In this document: positions 29,149 through 43,177 of the stretch, piece by piece | Position numbering within the stretch: position 1 is the stretch's first letter | Layout of the letters: the number at the start of each line of letters is the position of its first letter | NCBI RefSeq assembly: GCF_012277075.1 | Contig: NZ_JAAXMT010000010.1 | Location: 1 to 64,000 of the forward strand | Direction: 5' to 3' | DNA length: 64,000 nucleotides | Source: Streptococcus alactolyticus | GTDB taxonomy: Bacteria > Bacillota > Bacilli > Lactobacillales > Streptococcaceae | Made by a program: the position numbers and the translations under genes | Notes under the pieces: model-generated | Databases searched by the model: none | Told to the model about the DNA's origin: nothing | Seen by the model: only the letters and a program-made list of their open reading frames with translations

Positions 29149-30021
29149 TTACAAACCAGCTTCTTTTAAAGCGTCTGCCAATCTAGCAAAATCCGCAATA
29201 GAAAGGGCTTCGCCACGAACAGACGGTTTGATATCTGCCATGTCAAGCGCTTGTTCCAATTTAGCCTTGGTTTCCTCAGCTTTTCCAAAATGGCTAGTCA
29301 AATTATTCCAAAGGGTCTTGCGGCGGTGAACAAAGCTGATTTTAGCAATGCGGAAGAAGAAATCTTCATCTTTCACTTGAACAAGAGGTTGCTCACGGCG
29401 TGTCATTTTCAAAATAGCTGAATCCACGTTCGGTGCAGGCACAAAGACCGTGCGAGGCACGATGAAAGCCACCTTGGCTGTCATGTAATATTGCACCGCG
29501 ATTGACAATGACCCATAAGCCTTGATATTTGGCTCAGCTGAAATACGGTCTGCCACTTCTTTTTGCATCATCACGACAAATTCCGCAAATGGGATTTTTG
29601 ACTCAATCAAATGCATCAAGATAGGTGTGGTGATGTAGTAAGGCAGATTTGCGACCACCTTGATAGGCAAATCGGGATTTGCAAATGATTTGATATGGCT
29701 TTGCAAATCAGCTTTCAAAATGTCTCCGTTGATGACTTTGACGTTGTCAAAATCGCGGAGCGTATCCGCCAAAATCGGAATCAAACGGTCGTCAATTTCA
29801 AAAGCCATGACTTCAGCAGCATTTTCCGCCAAAAATTCCGTCAAAGCACCGATACCAGGACCAATTTCAATCACGTTGACACCCTTGTCAATCTCCGCTG
29901 TATCTACAATCTTTTGAAGAATATTGGTATCTGTCAAAAAGTTCTGTCCAAATGATTTTTTAAAGGTAAACCCATGACGCTCAAGAATAGCACGCGTCAC
30001 GCTATAATCTGCAATTCTCAT
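29149..30021 (-). CDS. rsmA: 16S rRNA A1518/A1519 dimethyltransferase
   Basis: KsgA-type SAM enzyme dimethylating two adenines in the 3' hairpin of 16S r[11 protein letters not shown], the SAM motif [14 protein letters not shown] and the catalytic [10 protein letters not shown] are present. I chose MRIADYSVT at 30021 (290 aa), since the upstream 24 codons show no family similarity. It follows rnmV and tatD in the order tatD-rnmV-rsmA seen in Firmicutes. Loss gives kasugamycin resistance in other bacteria. Confidence 0.96.
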
Positions 30022-30110
30022 AATCAATATTCCCCAACCAAAACGTGGGGACTTTTCTTTCCTTTCGTTTCTATCAATCTTAGTATAGAACACAGAAGAC
30101 TCTTAAAAAG

Positions 30111-30680
30111 TCAGCCCTCATATGTTGCCATCGTTTCTTCTACTTCGGCCAAAGTAATGTCAAAGAGCTCTAAGCGTTTGAGAAGTTGTTTGCCGTTGCT
30201 ATAACCAATACGAAGCTTTTCGCCCAAATATTCGCGACGTTTACGGCTATCTGCTCCCATTAAAAGCCCCAAGCGCATTAAGTCTGTTTTCGTGATGTCA
30301 AACTGGTCATCGTCATCAAAATGCCCCAACACACCTGACAAAGCCTTTTGCAAATCATCAAAACTGGCGTGTTCGACACCGAGCGAGCGCCCTTTTGTTT
30401 TTGACTTGGGAGCCGCCTCATCACGATTTAAAAAGGCGTGTTTCACATTTGGGATGGCATTCATGATGATTTTACGAATGCGTTCGCCGTTGTAATCTGG
30501 GTCGGTAAAGACAATAACCCCACGAAGATCATTTAATTTGTCAATACGCTCAAGGTCGTCATCATTGATAGCAGAACCTCGTGTTTCGTAGGTGTCCACA
30601 TCGTAGAAACGACGCAAATTGGCTGTGTCGTCCTTGCCTTCAACCACAACCACTTCTTGAATTTTAATTTTCTCAGTCAC
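30111..30680 (-). CDS. rnmV: ribonuclease M5
   Basis: TOPRIM-domain endonuclease that matures 5S rRNA. The TOPRIM motifs VVVVEGKDD and FTDPDYNGERIR are present. The start is GTG at 30680, with AGAGGTTG upstream; ORF extension to 30734 lies inside tatD. The 189-aa protein has normal length. It overlaps the tatD end by 8 bases. Confidence 0.93.
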   Translation of the reverse strand: MTEKIKIQEVVVVEGKDDTANLRRFYDVDTYETRGSAINDDDLERIDKLNDLRGVIVFTDPDYNGERIRKIIMNAIPNVKHAFLNRDEAAPKSKTKGRSLGVEHASFDDLQKALSGVLGHFDDDDQFDITKTDLMRLGLLMGADSRKRREYLGEKLRIGYSNGKQLLKRLELFDITLAEVEETMATYEG

Positions 30681-31446: not shown

Positions 31447-31551
31447 GTATTAGTCTATTCCTCTTTTTTCTCGTTTTTATTATAACATACTTCACGAAAA
31501 GGTATCCTGACACTAGGTTCACAAAAGAGCTGCACTTTCAAGCAAACGAAA

Positions 31552-31580
31552 ATACCATCAGTCTCGAGCACTGATGGTAT
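31552..31580 (-). terminator. rpmH terminator
   Basis: Perfect 11-bp stem ATACCATCAGT / ACTGATGGTAT, followed on minus by TTTTCG. Confidence 0.8.
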
Positions 31581-31595
31581 GGTTTATTCTATCAA

Positions 31596-31730
31596 TTAAG
31601 CAGATAAAACTTTACGTCCTTTACGACGACGTGCAGCTAGGACACGACGACCGTTTTTAGTCGACATACGGTGACGGAAGCCATGCTTACGTTGACGACG
31701 AATTTTACTTGGTTGATAAGTACGTTTCAC
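31596..31730 (-). CDS. rpmH: 50S ribosomal protein L34
   Basis: 44-aa basic protein ([18 protein letters not shown]). The start is GTG at 31730, with AGGAGGTAATC just upstream. As in other streptococci it is not beside dnaA; rnpA lies 15 kb away in this window. Confidence 0.96.
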
Positions 31731-31958
31731 AGTGATTACCTCCTCATAGATTTTCGTATTCGTTTAGCCGGCTATTTTTGATCAGTTACTAAACATACCT
31801 TATTATTTTATAACAAGAATGGCATCCTGTCAAGCTGTACCGCTCTTTTGTTTGTGTCTATTTTTTTGAGAATAATCATCAAGCCTATAAATCAAGAGAT
31901 TTCTCTGTTGAATTTTTTCAAAAAAAAATACCGAAACAAAGGTTTCCTTGCTTCAGTC

Positions 31959-32067
31959 TTGACTTTATTGGCTTTTTTTGTGTTACAATAACTTCAGACT
32001 GATTAAGCAAAGTGTAGATTTGTCTTAATCGGTGGAGTAGAAGTTACCCGCTTCTGCTCCTTTTTTT
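31959..32067 (+). ncRNA. putative small RNA with own promoter and terminator
   Basis: The -35 TTGACT (31959-31964) and an extended -10 TGtTACAAT (31984-31989) would start an RNA near 31996. It contains a hairpin GATTAAG (32001-32007) / CTTAATC (32024-32030) and ends in terminator GGAGTAGAAG / CTTCTGCTCC followed by T7. Length is about 70 nt. No ORF. Family not recognised. Confidence 0.6.
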
Positions 32068-32154
32068 GATTTTCTACAATGATATTATAACAAAATTGTC
32101 AGAAAAATGCAAACAAAAACAACTTAAAAAAGCCTTAAAATCCAAAAAATTTTA

Positions 32155-32755
32155 AAGTTTTTAATACTTAAATTTTTGGCGGTCAAGAGAAGTAAATTTC
32201 CCAGCACGTTGAAAAATTTTGCGTGATTTAAATATCGTTTGTTCCTTCGCTTCTCGGAGATAACCAACGCTTAAACGTTGATTTTGATAGTATTCATGTT
32301 TTTTGTTTTTAAGATAATTATAGTAAGCATTTGGACAGATGTTCATTCTTCTAAGAAGCCATCTGACCCCAAATGTCTGTTGATATTTCTGGATGAACTG
32401 GTACTGAGCTAATCGATTTCCTTCGCAAAGAATGCTGCCGCTTTTTTTTAAAAATCATTTTCCTTTTTGAGTTCTTCAATTTCTTTGCGTAGCTTTTTTG
32501 CAACTTCGTATGAATCAGATTCTTCCCGTTTTGTTGGGCTGTTATCGCATTCTTTGCGGTATTGCTGTAACCAGTATGTCAGCGTGCCTTGTCCAAGATT
32601 ATATTCTTCGGTCAGGCTTTTCTTGGTTCGTCCCTCTTCCAGATAGAGGCGAAGAACCTTTTGTTTGAGCTCAGGCTCGTAACGATTATTTGTCATTGTA
32701 ACATCTCCTTGGATTATGTATGTATTTTACCAAACTATACACAGGTGTTACAACT
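32155..32755 (-). mobile_element. IS3-family remnant
   Basis: OrfA-like protein 32448-32696 (82 aa) has a helix-turn-helix (KQKVLRLYLEEGRTKKSLTE) and a short coiled coil, then breaks. The following sequence reads, with frameshifts, as the start of OrfB (RLAQYQFIQKYQQTFGVRWL and RRMNICPNAYYNYLKNKK, 32161-32346). It then degenerates, with no DDE domain. The right end near 32752 starts TGTAACACCTGTG. Truncated and inactive. Confidence 0.8.
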
Positions 32756-32980
32756 TAATTATATCAGGTCAAATTTATTGGTTATAACAATTATACTTAT
32801 AGCTCTTATTACTACACTTGTAGTAGGAATTAAATATCTAAAAAATAGGTCTTCAAGTCATCTTCTACCACAAAAAACTTCTTCAGAACATATGATCACC
32901 ATGGAGAAACTATTAGCAACTAGTCTATGCATATTAGACCTCGTTATTCTTATCCATTCTAGCTTTCATCTTTTATCTTA
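32756..32980 (+). pseudogene. fragment of a membrane protein
   Basis: Open frame running out of the IS3 remnant. It has one hydrophobic segment (LLVITIILIALITTLVVGIKYL), then a polar stretch, then a second hydrophobic end (LCILDLVILIHSS). No start signal of its own, so it looks like the C-terminal part of a gene cut by the IS. Family not recognised. Confidence 0.4.
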
Positions 32981-33409
32981 ACATTACAATTTGAAAAGTT
33001 ACTGCTACATATTAACTTCAATGTCAAATTTAGCTCGAATATTATTATAAAAGTTAACATACTATAATTGATAAATATTATGATTAATGATTATCATAAC
33101 AAGATTACCCTAGTTTGAAAGACACTCCTAATTGTCAATATAGAATCTAACAATTAGAAGTGTTTTTATAATACCAACTTTCAAAAATCAAACTATGATA
33201 AAAAATACTTTTGAATACAATCCAACTTCATCCCTTTTCTTAAAATAGGCTATATTTTTATTTTATACACTATATGGCATCATTAGTTATTATCTGATGA
33301 AAGCAATACTTTTCAACTTATTATTTTTCTAACTTGGTAGTGTATCATCTAATCTAACATAGATTTTTATGTCTAATTTAATTGACAGATTGAATCTCAA
33401 GCAATTATA
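32981..33409. other. gene-free AT-rich stretch with operator-like palindrome and terminator
   Basis: About 430 bases without a supportable gene. It contains TTATGAT...ATCATAA (33078-33099), whose core ATGATTATCAT resembles a Fur-type operator, then a terminator-like hairpin CACTcCTAATTGT / ACAATTAGaAGTG with T tail (33123-33167). It looks like a promoter/terminator remnant. Confidence 0.4.
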
Positions 33410-35206
33410 TCACACATTTTTACGTGCTCGTAATGCTGAGAGAATTGAAACAGTATCAACAACTTCTTGAAGCATAGCTCCTAATAAAGTTGGGATGACA
33501 CCTGTTGCTGCAATGACCATCAGCACTAAACAAACAAATAAACCAATTAAAACAGATTGTTTAGCGATTTTCATGGTGTGTTTTGCAATAGCAATAACTT
33601 GTGCAACCTTACTCAAATCATCTTTCATGATGACAACATCTGCGTTCTCACTTGCTGCTGTTGATCCATGAGCACCCATAGCAATTCCGACATCTGCGGT
33701 TACAAGGGCTGGGGCATCATTTACACCATCTCCCACCATTAAAACTGGTCCATTTTGGACTTCAATATCTTTTAAGTGCTTAATTTTATCCTGCGGTAAG
33801 CAATCTGCGAAGACTTTATTAATACCAACCTGCTCTGCTATTTCCTTAGCGACTGAATATTTATCTCCAGTGAGCATAACTAGGTTTTTAACATCCATTT
33901 GTTGGAGTTTTTGCATTGTTTCCTTGGCTTCAGGTCGAACGGAGTCCTTAAAAGTAATATATCCGAGTAGATGACCGTTTTTACCAACATAAATGCTAGT
34001 TTCTTTTGAAAGATTTTCAGAACTAAAGTTTTTGATAAGGCTCGGTTTGCCTGCTGAAACTTCATTACCTGAAATCTTTCCTATGATACCTTGAGCCGTT
34101 ACTTCAGTTGCTGATGTGACAGGTAAAAATGTAATACCTTTACTTTTAGCGTATTGTACTAGTGAACGTGCTAAGATATGTGATGAATTTTGTTCAAGAC
34201 TTGCTGCAAGCTGAATGAGTTCTTCTTCCGTGGTCCCTTCAACTGCGATGATTTGATTGACAGCTAGGTTTCCTTGTGTAATAGTACCCGTCTTATCAAA
34301 AGCTACAGATTTTGCACCAGACAACTTTTCTAGGGTTGTCCCTGTTCTAATAATAATCCCGTTCTTTGATGCTTGACTCATGCCAGCAACCAGTGCTACA
34401 GGAGCTGCTAATATTAGGGGACATGGCGAAGCTACAACAAGGACTTGAGCAAAACGCACTGGATCTTTTGAGACAAACCAAGCAAATCCACCGATTACAT
34501 AAGCAATGACTGTAAAAGGAATTGAATAGCGATCAGCAAGTCTAACAAATGGTGCAGGATTTGAAGTTGACTCTTTTACCAATCTCACCAATTGTTGGTA
34601 TTGACTATCTTCAGCCAGTGAAGTAACTTCAAATTGGATAGAATTTGAACCATTCATAGAACCAGATAAAATATTATCTCCAACCTTCTTTTCAATTGGT
34701 TTAGATTCACCAGTCAGTGAGGCTTCATTAAAATCAGATTCTCCACGTAAAATACGTCCATCTACTGGCACCATCTCATCAGGTCTAACGACGACTACAT
34801 CACCAATTTTTAAAGCTTCAACAGGAACATCTTCCAACTCGTGTCCAATCAAGCGATGTGCAATTTTGGGACTATTATCAAGAAGACTTCGTAATTCACG
34901 ACTGGCCTGTTTACTGGCATAATCTTCAAGACTTTCCCCACCTGTAAGCATGATGAGAATCATAAGACTAGCCCAATAATCACCAACAAGTAAGGTAGCA
35001 ATAATAGCTGAAATAGCTAGAATATCAACACCGTACTGACCAGATTTTAAAGTCTTAATCATATCAATAAGCATTGATAAAGACATAATACCGCCGGCAA
35101 TAGCCACTAGAATGTAGGCCAAATCTGGTTTATGAAGAATAAAATTAATAACCAATGCACATAGTGCAATAGTTAGAGTTGTAAGTAATTTTTTGAAGTT
35201 TGACAT
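33410..35206 (-). CDS. P1B-4-type metal efflux ATPase (PmtA-like)
   Basis: 598-aa heavy-metal P-type ATPase without an N-terminal metal-binding domain. The transmembrane metal motif is SPC (about residues 260-262), typical of the P1B-4 group (Fe/Co/Zn) rather than CPC. TGES (about 165), phosphorylation DKTGT (D304), and GDGVNDAPAL (about 500) are intact. The usual HP pair reads SSHILA, so the Pro is replaced. ATG 35206 follows GAGGTG. A PerR-like box lies upstream, which fits PmtA, the peroxide-regulated iron exporter of S. pyogenes; this identity is inferred. Confidence 0.82.
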   Translation of the reverse strand: MSNFKKLLTTLTIALCALVINFILHKPDLAYILVAIAGGIMSLSMLIDMIKTLKSGQYGVDILAISAIIATLLVGDYWASLMILIMLTGGESLEDYASKQASRELRSLLDNSPKIAHRLIGHELEDVPVEALKIGDVVVVRPDEMVPVDGRILRGESDFNEASLTGESKPIEKKVGDNILSGSMNGSNSIQFEVTSLAEDSQYQQLVRLVKESTSNPAPFVRLADRYSIPFTVIAYVIGGFAWFVSKDPVRFAQVLVVASPCPLILAAPVALVAGMSQASKNGIIIRTGTTLEKLSGAKSVAFDKTGTITQGNLAVNQIIAVEGTTEEELIQLAASLEQNSSHILARSLVQYAKSKGITFLPVTSATEVTAQGIIGKISGNEVSAGKPSLIKNFSSENLSKETSIYVGKNGHLLGYITFKDSVRPEAKETMQKLQQMDVKNLVMLTGDKYSVAKEIAEQVGINKVFADCLPQDKIKHLKDIEVQNGPVLMVGDGVNDAPALVTADVGIAMGAHGSTAASENADVVIMKDDLSKVAQVIAIAKHTMKIAKQSVLIGLFVCLVLMVIAATGVIPTLLGAMLQEVVDTVSILSALRARKNV

Positions 35207-35263
35207 TCTATTCACCTCTTTCTTACTTTTATTATATTATAATAGTTCCAAAAAAACTACTAT

Positions 35264-35278
35264 TTATAATGATTCTAA
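35264..35278. promoter_or_regulatory. PerR box
   Basis: TTATAATGATTCTAA matches the PerR consensus TTATAATNATTATAA with one mismatch. It lies about 60 bases upstream of the P-type ATPase start. Confidence 0.65.
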
Positions 35279-35390
35279 ATAAAAATCAAATTATTAAGTG
35301 CAACAAATATTTTACTGAGCTAAGTCAATATATCTTATTATCATAGTGTGACTTTTATCTAACTTCATAGAATGCAGTAAGTGACTATTT

Positions 35391-35770
35391 ATGGGCGTGA
35401 AAAAATCTCTTGAATACCGTGTTCTAAAATATTACTGGAAACTCATTCAAAAGGATAGTCGAAAATTATCGCCCAATGCTTTTTATTCAAGGACTTTCAG
35501 AGAAACTCTAATATCTAAAGAGTATTTAAAAAGATTTTTCAAACACGTACCGCAACTTAAAAATTACTACAACCTTTATCCGTTATCAGAAATACATCAC
35601 TAATGCTACTCCCTTATTCTAACGTCAAACCTGAAGCTACTAACAAACTCATCAAAGATATTAAACGAAACACTTTTGGTTACAGGAACTTTGACAACTT
35701 TAAAAAACGCATTTACCTCGCTTTAAACATCAAAAAATCGAGAACATCATTTGTTCTCGCTAGAGTTTAA
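35391..35770 (+). mobile_element. ISL3-family transposase remnant
   Basis: Two pieces of the C-terminal part of an ISL3-type (IS1167-like) transposase. 35391-35603 carries VLKYYWKLIQKDSRKLSP. 35603-35770 carries LPYSNVKPEATNKLIKDIKR and FGYRNFDNFKKRIYLALNIK. They lie in different frames, with sequence missing between, and the N-terminal domain is absent. Inactive. It borders the broken ABC exporter that follows. Confidence 0.75.
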
Positions 35771-35788
35771 CTTTGACACCTATTACAG

Positions 35789-36834
35789 TTGACAAAGAGC
35801 GATTCATATGCAGGTAACTCTCATCATAGCAAGGACGAATACAATTCATGGTTAATTAATGACATGAATTTATTAAAAGATAACGGTTTTAATCAGTTAT
35901 ACAGCGCCATTGAAAGTATTATAACTGTGCTATTTAACGCTTTTGCTATCATTTATTTTCATTGGCTACTACTTGCGGTTAGTATTTTAATGACTGCTTT
36001 AGTTTACTTTCTTCCTAAAATTTTTGAAAATAATATTGCACAAGAAACGGAGGCTGTTTCATCTGATTTGACTGTTGCTTTAAATCGTACAAGTGATTAT
36101 TTAAGTGGTTTTGACATTTTTTCCACAATAATCAAACTGCTTACTTTAAAAATCGCATTTTAGCAGACTTTTTCACAGTGGTAAAATCCAAGGTTAAGTT
36201 GGCAAGAAGCTCTAGTACGGCTAATTCTCTTTCATTGATGTCAAGTGTTGTGGCACAAGTAATTATTTTTATGGTTACTGGTTATCTAGTCATTAAGGGG
36301 GAAATCACTACGGGGGTTATTTTCTCAATTGCCAATCTAACCAGTTGCCTATTCAACTACACTAGGGGAGCTGCTTATAACATTGTTACCTTTAAAGCGA
36401 CCTTTAAATTGCTAGAAAAATACCCTAAAAAAGTAAGTATTGAGAATCTCGATGCCATAACTAATTTTAATTAAGAATTGGTTATTCACGATTTGTGTGT
36501 CACTTTTGAAAATGGCAATAGCATCACCTATCCTAATATTACGATTAAGAAAGGAGAAAAAGTTGCTATTGTGGGAGGCTCGGGTGCTGGAAAATCAACA
36601 TTAATCCGAGTATTAACAGGAGAATTGACCTGCTATGACGGTGATATTGTGATTGATAATCATCATTACAAAGATACGTTGCTAGAAAGTTTGCAAACTA
36701 TTTTTGCCTTGATTCCTCAAAAACCACATATTTTTAAAGAATCTTTACTTGATAATCTGACCCTTAGTCGTTCTGTGGATAAGGACGTTTTTAAAAAGGT
36801 TTTGACTTTTGCACATGTGGATAGCTTTATTTGA
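35789..36834 (+). pseudogene. ABC exporter (membrane + ATPase) remnant
   Basis: Half-transporter of the ABCB/peptide-exporter type broken in at least four ways. The start is lost near the ISL3 remnant. The frame shifts at a T6 run near 36117-36122, since FHNNQTAYFKNRILADFF continues in another frame. An in-frame TAA sits at 36472-36474. The gene ends at 36834, before the signature, Walker B and switch regions. Membrane helices lie in 35850-36400. Walker A GGSGAGKST is at about 36574-36600. Original substrate unknown. Confidence 0.8.
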
Positions 36835-36993
36835 CCAAATTATAAAACTCTGAACATTCTTAGCTGCCTCTTTTTTATCGTTCGTTTTTTATACAACAAA
36901 AATACTATTTTACTTATAATAAAAAATAAGATATAATAATATCCTAACATTATTTAAAACATTGTGTCTTAATATTCGTAAAAAGGAGAAGTG

Positions 36994-38199
36994 ATGTCTA
37001 CCAACAATCGTTATGTCATCGCAAGTTGTGGTGTTATCTTGCATTTAATGCTAGGCTCTACCTACGCTTGGAGTGTTTATCGTAATCCTATTATTGCTGA
37101 GACTAGCTGGAATCAATCAGCGATTGCCTTTGCTTTTTCGCTTGCCATTTTCTGTTTGGGCATGTCGGCTGCATTTATGGGGCAAGTTGTGGAAAAATTT
37201 GGACCTCGTGTTACTGGTACCATTTCTGCTATCTTATATGCTTCTGGAAACATCCTGACAGGCTTTGCTATTGCCCAGCATAGTATCTTTCTGCTTTATC
37301 TTGGTTATGGTGTCCTTGGCGGTATCGGGCTGGGTACGGGCTATGTCACACCCGTATCAATGATTATCAAGTGGTTTCCTGATAAACGAGGGCTGGCAAC
37401 TGGGCTAGCTATAATGGGATTTGGCTTTGCCTCTCTTTTAACCGGTCCAATTGCGCATTTTTTAATCACCAAATATGATGTTATCAACACCTTTTACCTG
37501 TTAGGGGGAGCTTATTTTCTGGTCATGCTTATCGTCTCACAGTTTCTCAAATTTCCATCCTACAGTGAACAGGATACTGACGACAGTCATAAGCAATTAA
37601 GTCAAGGTATTGGAGCTAAAAAAGCCTTAAAAACAGTTGAATTTTACCTGCTCTGGCTAATTCTCTTCATCAACATTTCTTGTGGGCTTGCCTTAATCTC
37701 TGTTGTCTCACCTATGGCACAAGATATAGCTGGCATGACTGCCAACCAAGCTGCCATTATCGTTGGGCTTATGGGAATTTTCAATGGCTTTGGAAGATTG
37801 CTCTGGGCTAGCTTGTCAGACTATATCGGTCGTCCGCTGACCTTCCTTATTTTATTTGTTGTTAATATACTCATGACTGTATCGCTCATATTCCTTCACG
37901 CGCCAGCATTGTTCACCATTGCCATGGCTGTGCTCATGACTTGCTACGGAGCTGGCTTCTCACTCATTCCACCATATCTTAGCGATATTTTCGGTGCTAA
38001 AGAGCTAGCAACCATGCACGGTTATATTTTAACAGCTTGGGGAATGGCTGCGCTAGCAGGTCCAATGCTGCTTGCTGTCACATACTCAGCAACCAAATCA
38101 TACATAAGTACTCTTATTATCTTTATCCTACTCTATCTACTTGCACTAGCTATTACACTTTGGCTAAAATCACAAAAAGAAAATAAATATTTATCATAA
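36994..38199 (+). CDS. MFS transporter, OFA (oxalate/formate antiporter) family
   Basis: 401-aa permease with about 12 membrane segments. The start LHLMLGSTYAWSVYRNPI and the MFS loop motifs (PDKRGLATGLAIMGFGFASL; SDYIGRP between helices 8 and 9) place it in the OFA family, which moves small carboxylates by exchange or symport. ATG at 36994 is preceded by AAGGAGAA; a GTG one codon earlier is possible. It sits beside the malate permease and malic enzyme remnant, hinting at a carboxylate theme. Substrate not known. Confidence 0.85.
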   Translation: MSTNNRYVIASCGVILHLMLGSTYAWSVYRNPIIAETSWNQSAIAFAFSLAIFCLGMSAAFMGQVVEKFGPRVTGTISAILYASGNILTGFAIAQHSIFLLYLGYGVLGGIGLGTGYVTPVSMIIKWFPDKRGLATGLAIMGFGFASLLTGPIAHFLITKYDVINTFYLLGGAYFLVMLIVSQFLKFPSYSEQDTDDSHKQLSQGIGAKKALKTVEFYLLWLILFINISCGLALISVVSPMAQDIAGMTANQAAIIVGLMGIFNGFGRLLWASLSDYIGRPLTFLILFVVNILMTVSLIFLHAPALFTIAMAVLMTCYGAGFSLIPPYLSDIFGAKELATMHGYILTAWGMAALAGPMLLAVTYSATKSYISTLIIFILLYLLALAITLWLKSQKENKYLS

Positions 38200-38204
38200 A
38201 AATA

Positions 38205-38238
38205 ACCCCCTAGCCTGTGGTGAGCAAGCTAGGGGGGT
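38205..38238. terminator. hairpin between converging MFS and maeP genes
   Basis: ACCCCCTAGC / GCTAGGGGGGT stem. The T-rich side (TTATTTTTAT) lies on minus, so it may mainly serve the maeP transcript. Confidence 0.65.
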
Positions 38239-38322
38239 CTGTGTAATAATATTGTCTATTTTTTCAGAGTAAACACAAATTTTAAAGGGTATTCAATACA
38301 TTTTAAGGAGTAAAGTGTTGAA

Positions 38323-39594
38323 TTAATGTAAAAATTGGATTAGGATTCCTCCAAGGATGAGGACGATTGCACCGCCAAGTCGGTTTGCCATTTGGGCAAA
38401 GGCAATCATTTCCATGCGGTCCGCCGCAGAAAGCACAGCGATATTTCCTGTGCCACCCATGGAATTGTTAATCATCCCAGCACCGATAGCTGTTTCGACT
38501 GGATACATACCGAGAACCTGTCCCAAAATCCAGCTAGCAAGTCCCATTGACACAACAGATGTTAAACCGATAAGGACAAATTGCCATGTCATGGCTTGCG
38601 CTAATGAACTCAAATCAATCATTGAAAGCCCAATACCTGCCAAAACAGCGTGTGTCAAGTTAGTCATAATCACACGATTAAACATAACCACTGCTTCTTC
38701 TAATGGTTTTGGTACAATATCAAGCGCTTTGAGAACAAAGACAATGATAATCATAAAGGCATAGCTGTGCACTTTTGGAATAAAGGCATTTAAGATAACG
38801 CCGATAAGGAAAAGGGCAAAGGCAAACATCATTCCGACACCGATTTTTGTAGGGTCAAGCGGAGCTTCAGATTTTTTCAAATCGTCTTTGTCAACAGGGA
38901 TGAGCACACCGTGCCCATTGAATTTGGTGTTAGCAAATCCACGCGCCAACACAATGGCACCGATAATGGCAAAAATATTTCCTAGCGTGGTTGCTGGGGC
39001 TAATTGTGACAAGATTGATGAGGCATCTGTGTGCAATCCAGCCGCATAGATTTTGGATAATGGCACGATTCCTGCACCCATTCCTCCTGCCATTTGGGCA
39101 AATGAAATGTACATGACAGAATGTCCAAAGCCTTGACCGAGCAAAGCCCCAACAGCACCAGTGGCAAAGAAACCGATAACCATTGATAAAAGAGCGACAG
39201 GAATGAATTTAGCAGAGGCTTTCACCAAAAGTTTGCGGTTCATCCCTAGAATTGAGCCACAAATAAGCGCTGCAATATAAAAATCTAGAAAACCCCAATC
39301 ACTCATGAAACTAGAAGTGGCTGAAACAACTGATCTTGGAATCAATCCTGTTGAAGCTAAGATTGCGGCTAACAGCAAGGTAAAGACTGACCCACCACCA
39401 AGGTAAGTATTCCAAAATGGTAATCGTTCACCAAGGAAGTAGAAAAGATGTCCTAAAACGACCAACATGAAAGTAATTCCAACCATATTGAGCGGTAGTT
39501 TCCCCATAGCAATAACAACAGCTAAAATGATAACCAGAGCCTTATAAAGTGGAGCGGAAACACCCGCAATTTTAACGTTCGAGAATTTTTTCAT
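38323..39594 (-). CDS. maeP: malate/citrate permease of the 2-hydroxycarboxylate transporter family
   Basis: 423-aa integral membrane protein of the 2HCT family (CitS/CitP/MaeP), with the two GGMGAG / GGTGNI type reentrant-loop motifs at about 170 and 380. In streptococci maeP lies beside the malic enzyme gene maeE and takes up malate. Here it is 21 bases downstream of a truncated maeE, supporting malate over citrate. With the enzyme broken and no maeKR two-component genes here, uptake may be uncoupled from malate use. Confidence 0.88.
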   Translation of the reverse strand: MKKFSNVKIAGVSAPLYKALVIILAVVIAMGKLPLNMVGITFMLVVLGHLFYFLGERLPFWNTYLGGGSVFTLLLAAILASTGLIPRSVVSATSSFMSDWGFLDFYIAALICGSILGMNRKLLVKASAKFIPVALLSMVIGFFATGAVGALLGQGFGHSVMYISFAQMAGGMGAGIVPLSKIYAAGLHTDASSILSQLAPATTLGNIFAIIGAIVLARGFANTKFNGHGVLIPVDKDDLKKSEAPLDPTKIGVGMMFAFALFLIGVILNAFIPKVHSYAFMIIIVFVLKALDIVPKPLEEAVVMFNRVIMTNLTHAVLAGIGLSMIDLSSLAQAMTWQFVLIGLTSVVSMGLASWILGQVLGMYPVETAIGAGMINNSMGGTGNIAVLSAADRMEMIAFAQMANRLGGAIVLILGGILIQFLH

Positions 39595-39615
39595 ACGAAT
39601 GGTTATCCTCCTTCA

Positions 39616-40450
<835 letters not shown>

Positions 40451-40519
40451 CTAAACTCCTGTTGAAGCCGTTGCTAAAATAGCTGTTGAAAATAAAGCGA
40501 CTGCTTTAATCTTTTTCAT
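40451..40519 (-). CDS. 22-aa signal-peptide-like ORF
   Basis: MKKIKAVALFSTAILATASTG plus one residue, preceded by AAAGGAGGAAACCA. It looks like a signal peptide with the mature protein missing. The stop lies 3 bases before the dltC ATG. Either a truncated secreted-protein gene or part of the junction scar. Confidence 0.5.
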   Translation of the reverse strand: MKKIKAVALFSTAILATASTGV

Positions 40520-40531
40520 TGGTTTCCTCCT

Positions 40532-40930
40532 TTATTCATTTCGTTGGCGATGATAGCCAACTCCTGTTAACACAAGAAGATTATCTCCGTTTCGATTAAT
40601 TCTCTCAGCAATGATAAAGTGTTTTCGCTTGACGGTTAGAATTGCTGAGTAGATCTCGTGAAAACGGAGAATCTCTTCACTAACAACTTGCCAATTGCCA
40701 TTAACCATTCGTTTTTCTTGCACTACTGCAAACTTTGGTCTGACAATGGCTTGCCTTCCGTCAACAAGGTAAAGAATAGCTTCACCTTGTTGTCCAAGAA
40801 GACGTAAGTCTGATAGAGTCATTTCTGGTCTATCAAATACTTTTTGTAAGTTTGGTATAGCAAACTCCTTTCTGCTGCTTATGTAGAAATAAATTCTATC
40901 CGCAAATTTAAACGCATGAGTAATACTCAC
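40532..40930 (-). CDS. hypothetical protein of the replicon module
   Basis: 132-aa protein starting at GTG 40930 (FADRIYFYISSRKEF...TVKRKHFIIAERINRNGD). No membrane segment and no known motif. An inverted repeat AACTCCTaaacAGGAGTT (40931-40948) covers its AGGAG, which could hide the ribosome-binding site. It lies downstream of the RepA_N gene in the same direction and is presumably plasmid-borne in origin. Confidence 0.55.
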   Translation of the reverse strand: MSITHAFKFADRIYFYISSRKEFAIPNLQKVFDRPEMTLSDLRLLGQQGEAILYLVDGRQAIVRPKFAVVQEKRMVNGNWQVVSEEILRFHEIYSAILTVKRKHFIIAERINRNGDNLLVLTGVGYHRQRNE

Positions 40931-40948
40931 AACTCCTAAACAGGAGTT
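40931..40948. repeat. 18-bp palindrome over a ribosome-binding site
   Basis: AACTCCT aaac AGGAGTT, directly before the GTG at 40930. It may act as an RNA hairpin sequestering AGGAG or as an operator. Confidence 0.5.
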
Positions 40949-41118
40949 AAGCCAGGACGTGCCTTCCCTTTTAAAAGGCTGTTACACCGTCTTCCTTATT
41001 CATTGTTATTCCATAGGCTTGCTGATCAGATCGGTGTTGGTGTTTAATTGTCAAAGGGCACAAGCAGTTTTAAGACCTGCTTAGGTCAAGACTGACATTT
41101 TGAGTTCTCCTTGTAGTA

Positions 41119-41253
41119 TCACTGTTTATCCTTTGACGGTAATATAGTCATCTCATCATCAGCCATAAGTGGGGCATTGTGAATTTCAATTGTTAGTAAG
41201 GTAATGCCCGCAAGAACAATAAAGCTAATAATAACAAACACAATGCTAAACAT
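41119..41253 (-). CDS. small single-span membrane protein
   Basis: 44 aa from ATG 41253, preceded by AGGAGGAAACT. One hydrophobic span (FSIVFVIISFIVLAGITLL) is followed by a polar tail. It overlaps the end of rep by 8 bases, so it is coupled to it. Function unknown. Confidence 0.6.
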   Translation of the reverse strand: MFSIVFVIISFIVLAGITLLTIEIHNAPLMADDEMTILPSKDKQ

Positions 41254-42199
41254 AGTTTCCTCCTTGCAAACGCAGTTCATGATAAGCCTTTGCATTTCGA
41301 TGTGCAATTTCTTTTTGCTCATACAGTCGTTCTTGTTTTAAGTTTTCTAGTGATTTCAGCAAATAGGCTAATGGTGATGCACTATCCTTTGGAATACGTT
41401 CAATCATGTTTAATACTTCAGCACTTGTTACATAGCCACTTGCTAAATATTGTCCGATTTTCATTTTCTGGTTATGAGTCATTGTTAGGACATCTGGGAA
41501 ACCAAACATCTGGTCATTGTATTTATCAGCAATTATTTGCAAGAGAGAATAATACTTTGGTTCAACGAATGGAGTTGATTGATTTTGTGATAATGACTGA
41601 TTAGTTTCAGTTGACTGTGAAAATTCATTAGAATTTTTCTCAGTCTTTCTAGAACTAATATGATCACTATAATTAGTCTCGTTATATTCAGTCTCATTAG
41701 GGGCTGAATTTGACACCACCCCCGTATTATTTTGACACCCCCCTGGTCTAAATTTGACACCCCCTAGTCTAAATTTGACACCACCCTGGTCTAAATTTGA
41801 CACCCCGGGTAATTCATCATCGTTAGCGTCAAAATCATCAACAATCAAGTTTCCAAGATAAATACGATTAGCAAGGTTTCCTTTACTACTAGTTGACTGT
41901 TGAACTTCCTTAATTAAATCGTATTCAGCTAATTGTTTTTTTATCCTTAACAAAGTTGACTTTGATACTTTAAGAATTTTCATCAAACTTGTATTTGAAT
42001 AAACTAGATAAATTCGTCCCTCTTCATCAACCCAATTATTTCTTAGGGAAAGGCTTAGTCTATCTTTTAAGATTGAATAAGATACTTTTGAATCTAATCG
42101 CATATCTTCATAACGAGGACTTTCAAATAAAAGTTTTGGAAGTTTAAAATATCGTTCAGACGTTTCATACTGTTCTACAGTTATTGCATTAAAAACCAT
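41246..42199 (-). CDS. repA: RepA_N-family replication initiator
   Basis: 317 aa from ATG 42199. The N-terminal domain (about 1-120: AITVEQYETSERYFKLPKLL, LDSKVSYSILKDRLSLSLRN, STLLRIKKQL) is the RepA_N signature of theta-replicating Firmicutes plasmids and some integrative elements. The central part (about 130-165) is low-complexity because the DNA there holds iterons. The C-terminal domain is the variable, host-linked type. It lies 4 bases downstream of a 53-aa gene. An integrated or captured plasmid replicon. Confidence 0.85.
   Translation of the reverse strand: MVFNAITVEQYETSERYFKLPKLLFESPRYEDMRLDSKVSYSILKDRLSLSLRNNWVDEEGRIYLVYSNTSLMKILKVSKSTLLRIKKQLAEYDLIKEVQQSTSSKGNLANRIYLGNLIVDDFDANDDELPGVSNLDQGGVKFRLGGVKFRPGGCQNNTGVVSNSAPNETEYNETNYSDHISSRKTEKNSNEFSQSTETNQSLSQNQSTPFVEPKYYSLLQIIADKYNDQMFGFPDVLTMTHNQKMKIGQYLASGYVTSAEVLNMIERIPKDSASPLAYLLKSLENLKQERLYEQKEIAHRNAKAYHELRLQGGNYV
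41709..41804. repeat. iterons within repA (putative origin)
   Basis: Five copies of TTTGACACC start at 41709, 41731, 41753, 41774 and 41796. The last three spacers contain CTAAA before each. Spacings are 22, 22, 21 and 22 bases, about two helical turns and not multiples of three. They are thus DNA-level repeats, not protein repeats. RepA_N plasmids keep their origin inside rep. Confidence 0.8.
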
Positions 42200-42203
42200 A
42201 AAT

Positions 42204-42365
42204 CTATACCATTTTAAAATAAAGCTGACCATTTGGTTTTATTTCAATAAGACCAAATTTTTCTAATTCAGCAAGTTGACTTTGACTTTCTTTACGTGAA
42301 ATTTTTAACTCAAACATCAAAAATTCAATGAGTATTTCACGCGAATGTAGTTCATTAGAAGTCAT
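42204..42365 (-). CDS. small protein upstream of repA
   Basis: 53 aa from ATG 42365 (AAAGGATAC upstream). LHSREILIEFLMFELKISRK and QLAELEKFGLIEIKPNG read like a compact winged-helix DNA-binding fold. It ends 4 bases before repA and may regulate it. No named family recognised. Confidence 0.55.
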   Translation of the reverse strand: MTSNELHSREILIEFLMFELKISRKESQSQLAELEKFGLIEIKPNGQLYFKMV

Positions 42366-42395
42366 GTTTGTATCCTTTCTTTTTAGTACAGAAAA

Positions 42396-42450
42396 AGAGA
42401 ACAATTTTCATTGCTCTCTTGACTTATAGATTTATTTTATTAATTCTCAA
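42396..42450 (-). promoter_or_regulatory. rep promoter and leader hairpin
   Basis: On minus, TTGAGA (plus 42445-42450) and TATAAG (plus 42423-42428) are 16 bases apart. The transcript would begin at a terminator-like hairpin AGAGAACAAT / ATTGCTCTCT (42396-42419) followed by T5. Possible attenuation or antisense control of rep. Confidence 0.5.
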
Positions 42451-42568
42451 AACTCTAGACACTTACCGCTCTTTTTTAACAAATCAAATCCCCAATGCAG
42501 CTTTTCAAGGCGTTTGAAGAGGTCTGAAATTAAATAACTCACCTCAATGAGAAGTGTTGATTGAATAT

Positions 42569-42711
42569 TTATTCACCACTGTCAGTAGCATATGTCTTTA
42601 GGATAGCATAGTTATCAGTTAAAGAATAAAATAAACCACCTTCCTCATCAGTAATGACTTTAGTATTTCCATCAATACCCCAGTCGTTAAACATTTCATC
42701 AATGTCACCTC
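42569..42711 (-). pseudogene. C-terminal gene fragment at the replicon border
   Basis: Open frame of about 46 codons with no start signal of its own (DIDEMFNDWGIDGNTKVITDEEGG...TYATDSGE). It begins within a base or two of the LytTR stop. It looks like the tail of a protein joined here by the insertion. Family not recognised. The 200 bases between it and the 53-aa gene contain only the rep promoter. Confidence 0.45.
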
Positions 42712-43177
42712 ACAATCCCAAGTTTTCCAACTCTGACAAATAACGCCGACTAACATCTGCTTTGATTTTTCCTGTCAATATCGCTAACATATTGCCTGAA
42801 AAGCTATTCTCAAGTGCTTGCAAATGATTGATATTAATCAAAGCATGCTTAGAAACCTGTACAAAATCTGGATTTGCTAAGCGATTGCGAAATTTATACA
42901 ATCGGTCGTTAGTCAGCAATCGTCCCTGCGTCGTTTCCAAAATAAGGGTAGAGCCATCAACATCAACGAGAATCAAATCTGCCACATGCAACATTTCAAT
43001 ACACTCTACCGTTTTTATCGGCAAAACTGCCGGATCTGTTTGCTCAAATTGGGCAAGATAATCCAGAACTTTTTGTACGGAATTGTCAAACTGACAGCTT
43101 TTAACTAAGACTTCAATAACATCTTTTGGTAACTGCTTATTTTCCTCGAATTGATAGTGCACAACTCTCCCCCTCAT
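42710..43177 (-). CDS. LytTR-family DNA-binding regulator
   Basis: 155 aa. The LytTR domain (about 60-155: LILVDVDGSTLILETTQGRLLTNDRLYKFRN...FVQVSKHALININHL) binds DNA. There is no response-regulator receiver domain. Such short LytTR proteins usually pair with a membrane protein that inhibits them (DUF3021). Here the next gene is replaced by a fragment. It follows an ABC transporter by 7 bases and may control it. Confidence 0.85.
   Translation of the reverse strand: MRGRVVHYQFEENKQLPKDVIEVLVKSCQFDNSVQKVLDYLAQFEQTDPAVLPIKTVECIEMLHVADLILVDVDGSTLILETTQGRLLTNDRLYKFRNRLANPDFVQVSKHALININHLQALENSFSGNMLAILTGKIKADVSRRYLSELENLGL

Follow-up and report, generated by a model that had tools for sequence, protein, structure and literature searches.

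The RepA_N replication gene at 41246-42199 of the window (the whole 64-kb stretch of Streptococcus alactolyticus DNA that was analysed) very probably belongs to a replication module located at the right end of a degenerate TnGBS-family ICE, which is inserted upstream of rpmH. This assignment draws on the element ends, the target duplication, the type of target, the gene losses within the window, the identity of the module, and the co-occurrence of one type of RepA N-terminal domain (NTD) with one type of iteron. Both terminal repeats lie within the window and delimit an element of 10.6 kb (31850-42466). The initial annotation had described a compact plasmid replication module inside a chromosome. 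A RepA_N module is indeed integrated there; it does not, however, stand alone, since it ends at a TnGBS repeat. The suggestion of a recent plasmid capture is retained in its first half, because the target duplication is still exact and the insertion is therefore probably recent, whereas the capture of a plasmid is contradicted by the TnGBS repeats and by larger elements with the same right arm, which carry a transposase, conjugation genes, and ParA.

According to excerpts of two studies (PMC3942029, PMC4701971), TnGBS elements have a DDE transposase belonging to the ISLre2 group and inverted repeats 18-39 bp long, duplicate 8-9 bp of their target, and insert at a distance of 15-17 bp upstream from a sigma-A -35 box; the circle carries RepA_N and ParA and replicates like a plasmid, with 6-10 bp between the repeats in circular forms. 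In the window the terminal inverted repeats are 24 bp long (31850-31873 on the left and 42443-42466 on the right, complementary at 19 of 24 positions), the right one ending with the C that is terminal in this family and the left one beginning with G. Immediately outside them the 9-bp target-site duplication CGCTCTTTT is found in two exact copies (31841-31849 and 42467-42475), and these flanks are the only two places on the plus strand of the window where the sequence occurs; with equal base use, nine bases would agree by chance at a specified position with a probability of about 4e-6. The left end was discovered by a search with the left flank of the related element in genome G139, another member of the genus, which matched window positions 31536-31927.

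The insertion target is the promoter of rpmH (31596-31730, minus strand), a 44-aa ORF that we take, from its sequence, to encode ribosomal protein L34. The sigma-A promoter of this gene (TTGACA-17-TAAAAT) has its -35 box 16 bp outside the left repeat, compared with 15 bp for the element of G139 (a promoter beside its own rpmH) and 16 bp for that of S. agalactiae ATCC 13813 (another promoter), all promoters being recognised by consensus. The transposase end faces the promoter in all three, in agreement with the fixed orientation of the family. The S. agalactiae element has its own 9-bp duplication, TCTTATTCT, and no target duplication is present at the ends of the G139 element.

The initial annotation had proposed a comparison of the module with RepA_N plasmids, and the result does not favour a plasmid origin. 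Among 72,556 plasmid records, 1 has a DNA match to 40240-42750, namely p1_CUN_G3 of S. ruminicola CNU_G3 (NZ_CP046625.1; a 41.6-kb circle, 77.4% identity over 55% of the query), and this record itself has TnGBS-type repeats and an ISLre2-family transposase. Its annotation also lists a relaxase, MobC, VirD4, VirB4, PrgI, ParA, and adhesins. The two terminal repeats of the circle lie side by side, 3 bp apart, as against the 6-10 bp given for circular forms in the excerpts cited above. In a search of 284 genomes of the genus, a DNA match of nearly full length was otherwise obtained in G139 alone (92%), which rules out a conserved chromosomal locus; S. agalactiae ATCC 13813 matches at 75% over query positions 3-1294 of 2031.

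The same two genomes contain matches to 28 (G139) and 29 (S. agalactiae) of the 36 S. ruminicola element proteins with a collinear right arm, as counted by eye with one annotated 48-aa protein left out. Both are themselves altered: about 44 kb of other DNA lies inside the Fic gene of the G139 element, the rep gene of G139 (L075 10529-11472) is frameshifted with 43 bases (two iterons) missing, and about 2 kb interrupts the VirB4 match in S. agalactiae. In the window, 5 of the 36 proteins have a match at E 1e-5, and the relaxase, VirD4, and VirB4 are absent among these five. Likewise, tblastn detects no ParA, relaxase, or VirD4 in the 64-kb window, and VirB4 was not found in the whole S. alactolyticus genome by a search run without a positive control in the same tool (by tblastn, the same VirB4 query matches G139 at 97.8%). 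The earlier remark that no partition or transfer gene is visible locally thus holds, although it concerned the right end only.

As for the replication gene itself, profile search, reading frame, and PDB matches agree on a RepA_N initiator of 317 aa, encoded on the minus strand and open throughout. Its N-terminal domain matches PF06970 with an E-value of 8.6e-28 (96.5 bits against a cut-off of 30) and the solved RepA N-terminal domains 4pta, 4pql, 4pt7, and 5kbj with E-values of 6e-23 to 1.1e-22, which confirms the clear RepA_N domain noticed at the outset. The start is likely the ATG at 42199: it sits just past 42204, where the upstream 53-aa gene ends, and a longer ORF, from 42232, would overlap that gene. 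For the C-terminal part of RepA, dN/dS equals 0.075/0.279 against G139 and 0.12/0.77 against S. ruminicola, values that reflect selection on the lineages compared and not necessarily after the present insertion. The same genome contains a further C-terminal fragment of a RepA_N gene (L083, contig C17, 128424-128789), with 47% identity and one stop. In addition, an S. gallolyticus element whose record was deposited as phage contains a related RepA_N gene (L036 8001-8489) close to genes annotated as Tet(O) and Lnu(C); of 50,697 records in the phage collection, 125 have RepA_N matches, all below 60% identity.

The presumed origin consists of five iterons TTTGACACC (GGTGTCAAA on the coding strand) at 41709-41804, in the middle of rep, and thus has the central repeat array expected of a RepA_N gene. 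The repeats start at 41709, 41731, 41753, 41774, and 41796, i.e., with a spacing of 22/22/21/22, and their codon phases along the coding strand are 2, 0, 0, 1, and 2, while the total length of the array preserves the reading frame. No run exceeding two 9-mers with this kind of spacing was seen in 5000 gene-length or in 60 64-kb first-order Markov sequences. Both statements of the initial annotation on this array, the exact spacing inside rep and the independence from codon phase, are therefore correct, and the array is far beyond Markov chance.

The association between iteron and initiator was examined in 38 distinct rep genes from fetched loci. An NTD at least 70% identical to the one here is found in 10 rep genes, this one included, and every one of them has 2-5 copies of GGTGTCA in mid-gene; several of these 10 are close relatives, so that they do not represent ten independent cases; among the remaining rep genes, with an NTD below 70% identity, 0 of 28 have more than one copy. 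This co-occurrence supports, short of proof, recognition of the iterons by Rep. The pairing provides a direct test of origin recognition and specificity exchange in RepA_N genes. The S. ruminicola and S. agalactiae elements have another RepA NTD (46% identity) and no such iteron array, and because of this difference the right arm in the window is itself recombinant. Compared with S. ruminicola, blastn similarity is lost over 41743-42392, which covers the upstream gene, the NTD, and the iterons together, and is kept in the C-terminal part of rep; this is the pattern of an exchanged specificity module, as in pPR9.

Two tiny genes flank rep, as had been noted, and each of them has a homologue in relatives. 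The upstream one (42204-42365, minus strand) encodes 53 aa with a sub-threshold HTH resemblance, and 16 of the other 37 distinct rep genes have a homologue of it immediately 5' (duplicates were removed by eye); a Pfam match of the protein to OB_DEPS-1_6th is under the cut-off and was ignored. The downstream gene (41098-41253, minus strand; ORF listed as 41119-41322) matches an annotated 54-aa protein, the S. ruminicola GO995_RS09505 product, at 40% with an E-value of 7.6e-9. Upstream of both the 53-aa gene and rep, folding indicates a terminator-like leader hairpin followed by a T-run (42395-42420, minus strand; -15 kcal/mol for 65 nt, z = -3.19), and no Rfam RNA matches the leader at gathering thresholds. 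A candidate promoter, TTGAGA-16-TATAAG (42423-42450, minus strand), was read by eye with its -35 box inside the terminal repeat, and the same two hexamers are present in two relatives with a spacing of 18 bp. Regarding the promoter and leader hairpin claimed initially, the hairpin is thus well supported, whereas the promoter is the weaker of the two: it is visible, but a consensus scan does not list it and finds promoters no more often than expected (7 against 8.6).

Little of the transposase gene is left inside the element. The left end (31850-32297, minus strand) includes the last approximately 45 codons of an ISLre2-family transposase gene (from ~32161), recognised by DNA matches and by a tblastn match to tnpA residues 387-450. 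Positions 31846-32295 are 98.0% identical to the S. agalactiae ATCC 13813 element, and 31536-32297, which include the rpmH flank, are 93.7% identical to G139. A whole-genome search with PF06782 returned no match in this genome and none in any control genome either. The remnant is followed by an IS fragment (32295-32772, minus strand), presumably IS3-type, which contains an orfA-like transposase piece (HTH_Tnp_1; PF01527, 3.6e-11) and is 99.8% identical to G139 1939458-1939935, and then by 32773-33057, which is 97.9% identical to G096.

Most of the remaining interior up to the right arm is occupied by chromosomal genes. An intact 601-aa ORF (33410-35215, minus strand; PF00122, 2.5e-47) encodes a P-type ATPase; it is followed by a broken ABC exporter in three ORF pieces (35789-36834, plus strand), with ABC_tran in the last piece only, and by an MFS transporter (36991-38199, plus strand; PF07690, 4.4e-47). 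The next ORF (38323-39594, minus strand) encodes a citrate/malate transporter that we take to be mleP-like from its sequence and its place beside mleS. The malolactic enzyme gene mleS is reduced to its 3' part (39616-40286, minus strand), which covers NF041582 positions 314-536 of 536 and scores 357.5 bits, below the cut-off of 850 as expected of a fragment. Its 5' half is missing, and at the junction at 40285-40287 it meets the first ~54 codons of dltC (40287-40447, minus strand; NF003464, 77.5/75.4 bits, cut-off 68). The start of dltC lacks its 3' end and is fused, through the 9-bp microhomology TAAACTCCT, to the initial 22 codons of a gene for an LPXTG surface protein (40454-40519, minus strand). 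The right arm of the element (40452-42466, minus strand) is 92% identical to G139 1974730-1976705, with 2 mismatches and one 43-base iteron gap outside a divergent patch at ~41000-41600, and contains a 132-aa ORF conserved in the element family (40532-40930, minus strand; 68.5% to an annotated S. ruminicola protein). The junctions between mleS, dltC, and the right arm had been considered as the scar of large chromosomal deletions, and this idea was dropped once the left end at 31850 appeared.

According to the search for dltA, the genome has no match, and of dltC only the start is present. Across the genus, dltA has a match at E 1e-3 in 246 of 284 genomes, 229 of which pass the cut-off. G037 also has no dltA match, and an ORF there resembles, by eye, the end of dltD joined to other genes; this seems to be a separate dlt loss.

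In G168, G123, and similar relatives, the ABC, MFS, mle, and dlt genes lie between tatD and rpmH with the same gene order, and in the window tatD (to 31446) adjoins rpmH (from 31596). To compare cargo with host DNA, the best identity among eight relatives was taken for each piece (seven for ksgA, rnmV, and tatD, where the DNA of G171 fell short). The host genes to the left of the element reach 86.1% (ksgA), 83.9% (rnmV), and 85.4% (tatD). The cargo values are 98.9% for the ATPase region (33336-35809, to G139, near its tatD), 96.5% for the ABC exporter (35802-36830, G171), 98.2% for the MFS gene (G123), 97.4% for mleP (G171), 96.6% for mleS (G169), and 98.1% for dltC (G061). Relatives of the other type are more distant, with 72% for the ABC exporter (35837-36830, five relatives), 81-86% for the MFS gene, 82-84% for mleP, and 88% for dltC; mleS is 93-97% identical to all eight. 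Since these piecewise identities follow different relatives, the cargo is a mosaic of the gene pool of the relatives. Host DNA to the right of the element (42681 to ~44900, containing lytTR and two ABC genes) is 93-94% identical to G171 and 69-76% to five others, which indicates recent exchange outside the element as well; further on, identity drops to 76-77% (jag) for all tested relatives. Positions 42572-42705 correspond to an internal piece of a 133-aa ORF of G171 (88%), the next G171 ORF is missing, and the LytTR gene follows. Another broken mleS fragment, a 5' part that is 75-79% similar, is located elsewhere in the genome (L114, contig C10, ~29230-30254) and is possibly the host's own mle relic. 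It lies beside an mprF-like gene, so named by eye.

In a full element of this type, the ISLre2-type DDE transposase would excise a circle, and RepA, the product of the small operon next to the right repeat, would bind to the iterons lying within rep and initiate theta replication of that circle, which ParA and the conjugation genes would maintain and spread. In the genome studied here, deletions and rearrangements have removed nearly all of tnpA as well as the par and conjugation genes of the element, and a piece of a streptococcal tatD-dlt region, from the P-type ATPase to the dltC start, is now situated between the element ends. Circle formation could now occur only with a transposase supplied from elsewhere. 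The insertion is probably inert, and rep is possibly still expressed from it.

Two routes for the cargo may be considered. Two copies of the element may have carried it in by moving together as a composite, or a full ICE may have inserted at rpmH and the host's tatD-rpmH region may then have been shuffled in by IS-mediated unequal crossing-over and deletions, so that a 10.6-kb unit never moved. The rearrangement in place would fit the IS fragment between the tnpA remnant and the chromosomal piece, and also the cargo order, which is that found between tatD and rpmH in relatives, with tatD here beside rpmH. The cargo, however, is far closer to other species than the host tatD is, and the second broken mleS on contig C10 looks as if the mle genes of the element came from outside. 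We rate the in-place route at somewhat less than an even chance and, because of the identity contrast between cargo and host, lean slightly towards the composite. A further reading, in which the 10.6 kb form a TnGBS derivative that is non-autonomous but mobilisable in trans, a "transposable mini-plasmid" equipped with both terminal repeats and a RepA_N origin of its own, appears doubtful. If this were true, a helper transposase could excise the mini-plasmid, the circle would replicate, and genes for a malate transporter and a P-type ATPase would be ferried between streptococcal species.

The other explanations fare considerably worse. Integration of a RepA_N plasmid by itself might be expected, plasmids being the typical carriers of RepA_N genes (tblastn matches in 3548 of 72,556 records) and the closest record having been deposited as one; this sole DNA-level record, however, has an ISLre2-family transposase gene and side-by-side TnGBS-type repeats, as in a circular form, and the window copy stops exactly at the terminal repeat with the target duplication outside, which leaves such an event very improbable. 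An assembly artefact that joined separate pieces, conceivable for a draft genome of 29 contigs with mosaic identities, is very unlikely in view of the exact 9-bp duplication on both outer sides, the microhomology at an inner junction, and the host-type genes on both sides of the element within one 135.5-kb contig. Hardly more credible is a domesticated RepA that drives a second chromosomal origin. Its open ORF and in-frame iterons, in comparison with the frameshifted G139 copy that lacks 43 iteron bases, and the dN/dS values of the C-terminal part would agree with it, but that selection acted on the compared lineages and not necessarily after insertion, and the locus is not conserved, with one other near full-length match in 284 genomes. 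The degenerate TnGBS-family ICE therefore remains by far the preferred explanation.

The case illustrates that what looks like a solitary plasmid replicon in a chromosome can turn out to be one arm of an ICE with a DDE transposase, and it is delimited by both ends and a target duplication, with chromosomal metabolic genes between ICE ends. Among the papers listed by a limited literature search, there was no report of TnGBS ends framing chromosomal cargo.

In comparison with TnGBS ICEs (p-MULT3/ISLre2 DDE), the window element shares the terminal repeats, the 9-bp duplication, the location 16 bp from a sigma-A -35 box, and the RepA_N module at the right end, in the orientation seen in two relatives. 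It differs in having ~45 codons of tnpA, no conjugation or par genes in the window, and chromosomal DNA enclosed by the ends. S. ruminicola p1_CUN_G3 has the same right-arm gene order and terminal repeats; it differs, however, in its transfer genes, its length of 41.6 kb, its RepA NTD (46%), and the absence of an array of the window iteron. With pSK41-type replicons, as far as excerpts of PMC5703833 describe them, the window shares the NTD type of the initiator and an origin centrally inside rep. The window replicon, in contrast to those plasmids, is chromosomal and located in an ICE arm. The same excerpts present the rep gene of pPR9 as chimeric, with NTD and origin exchanged; the difference between the window and S. 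ruminicola would be an exchange of this kind over the NTD and iterons, except that here, compared with the pPR9 description available there, the exchange extends to the 53-aa gene upstream.
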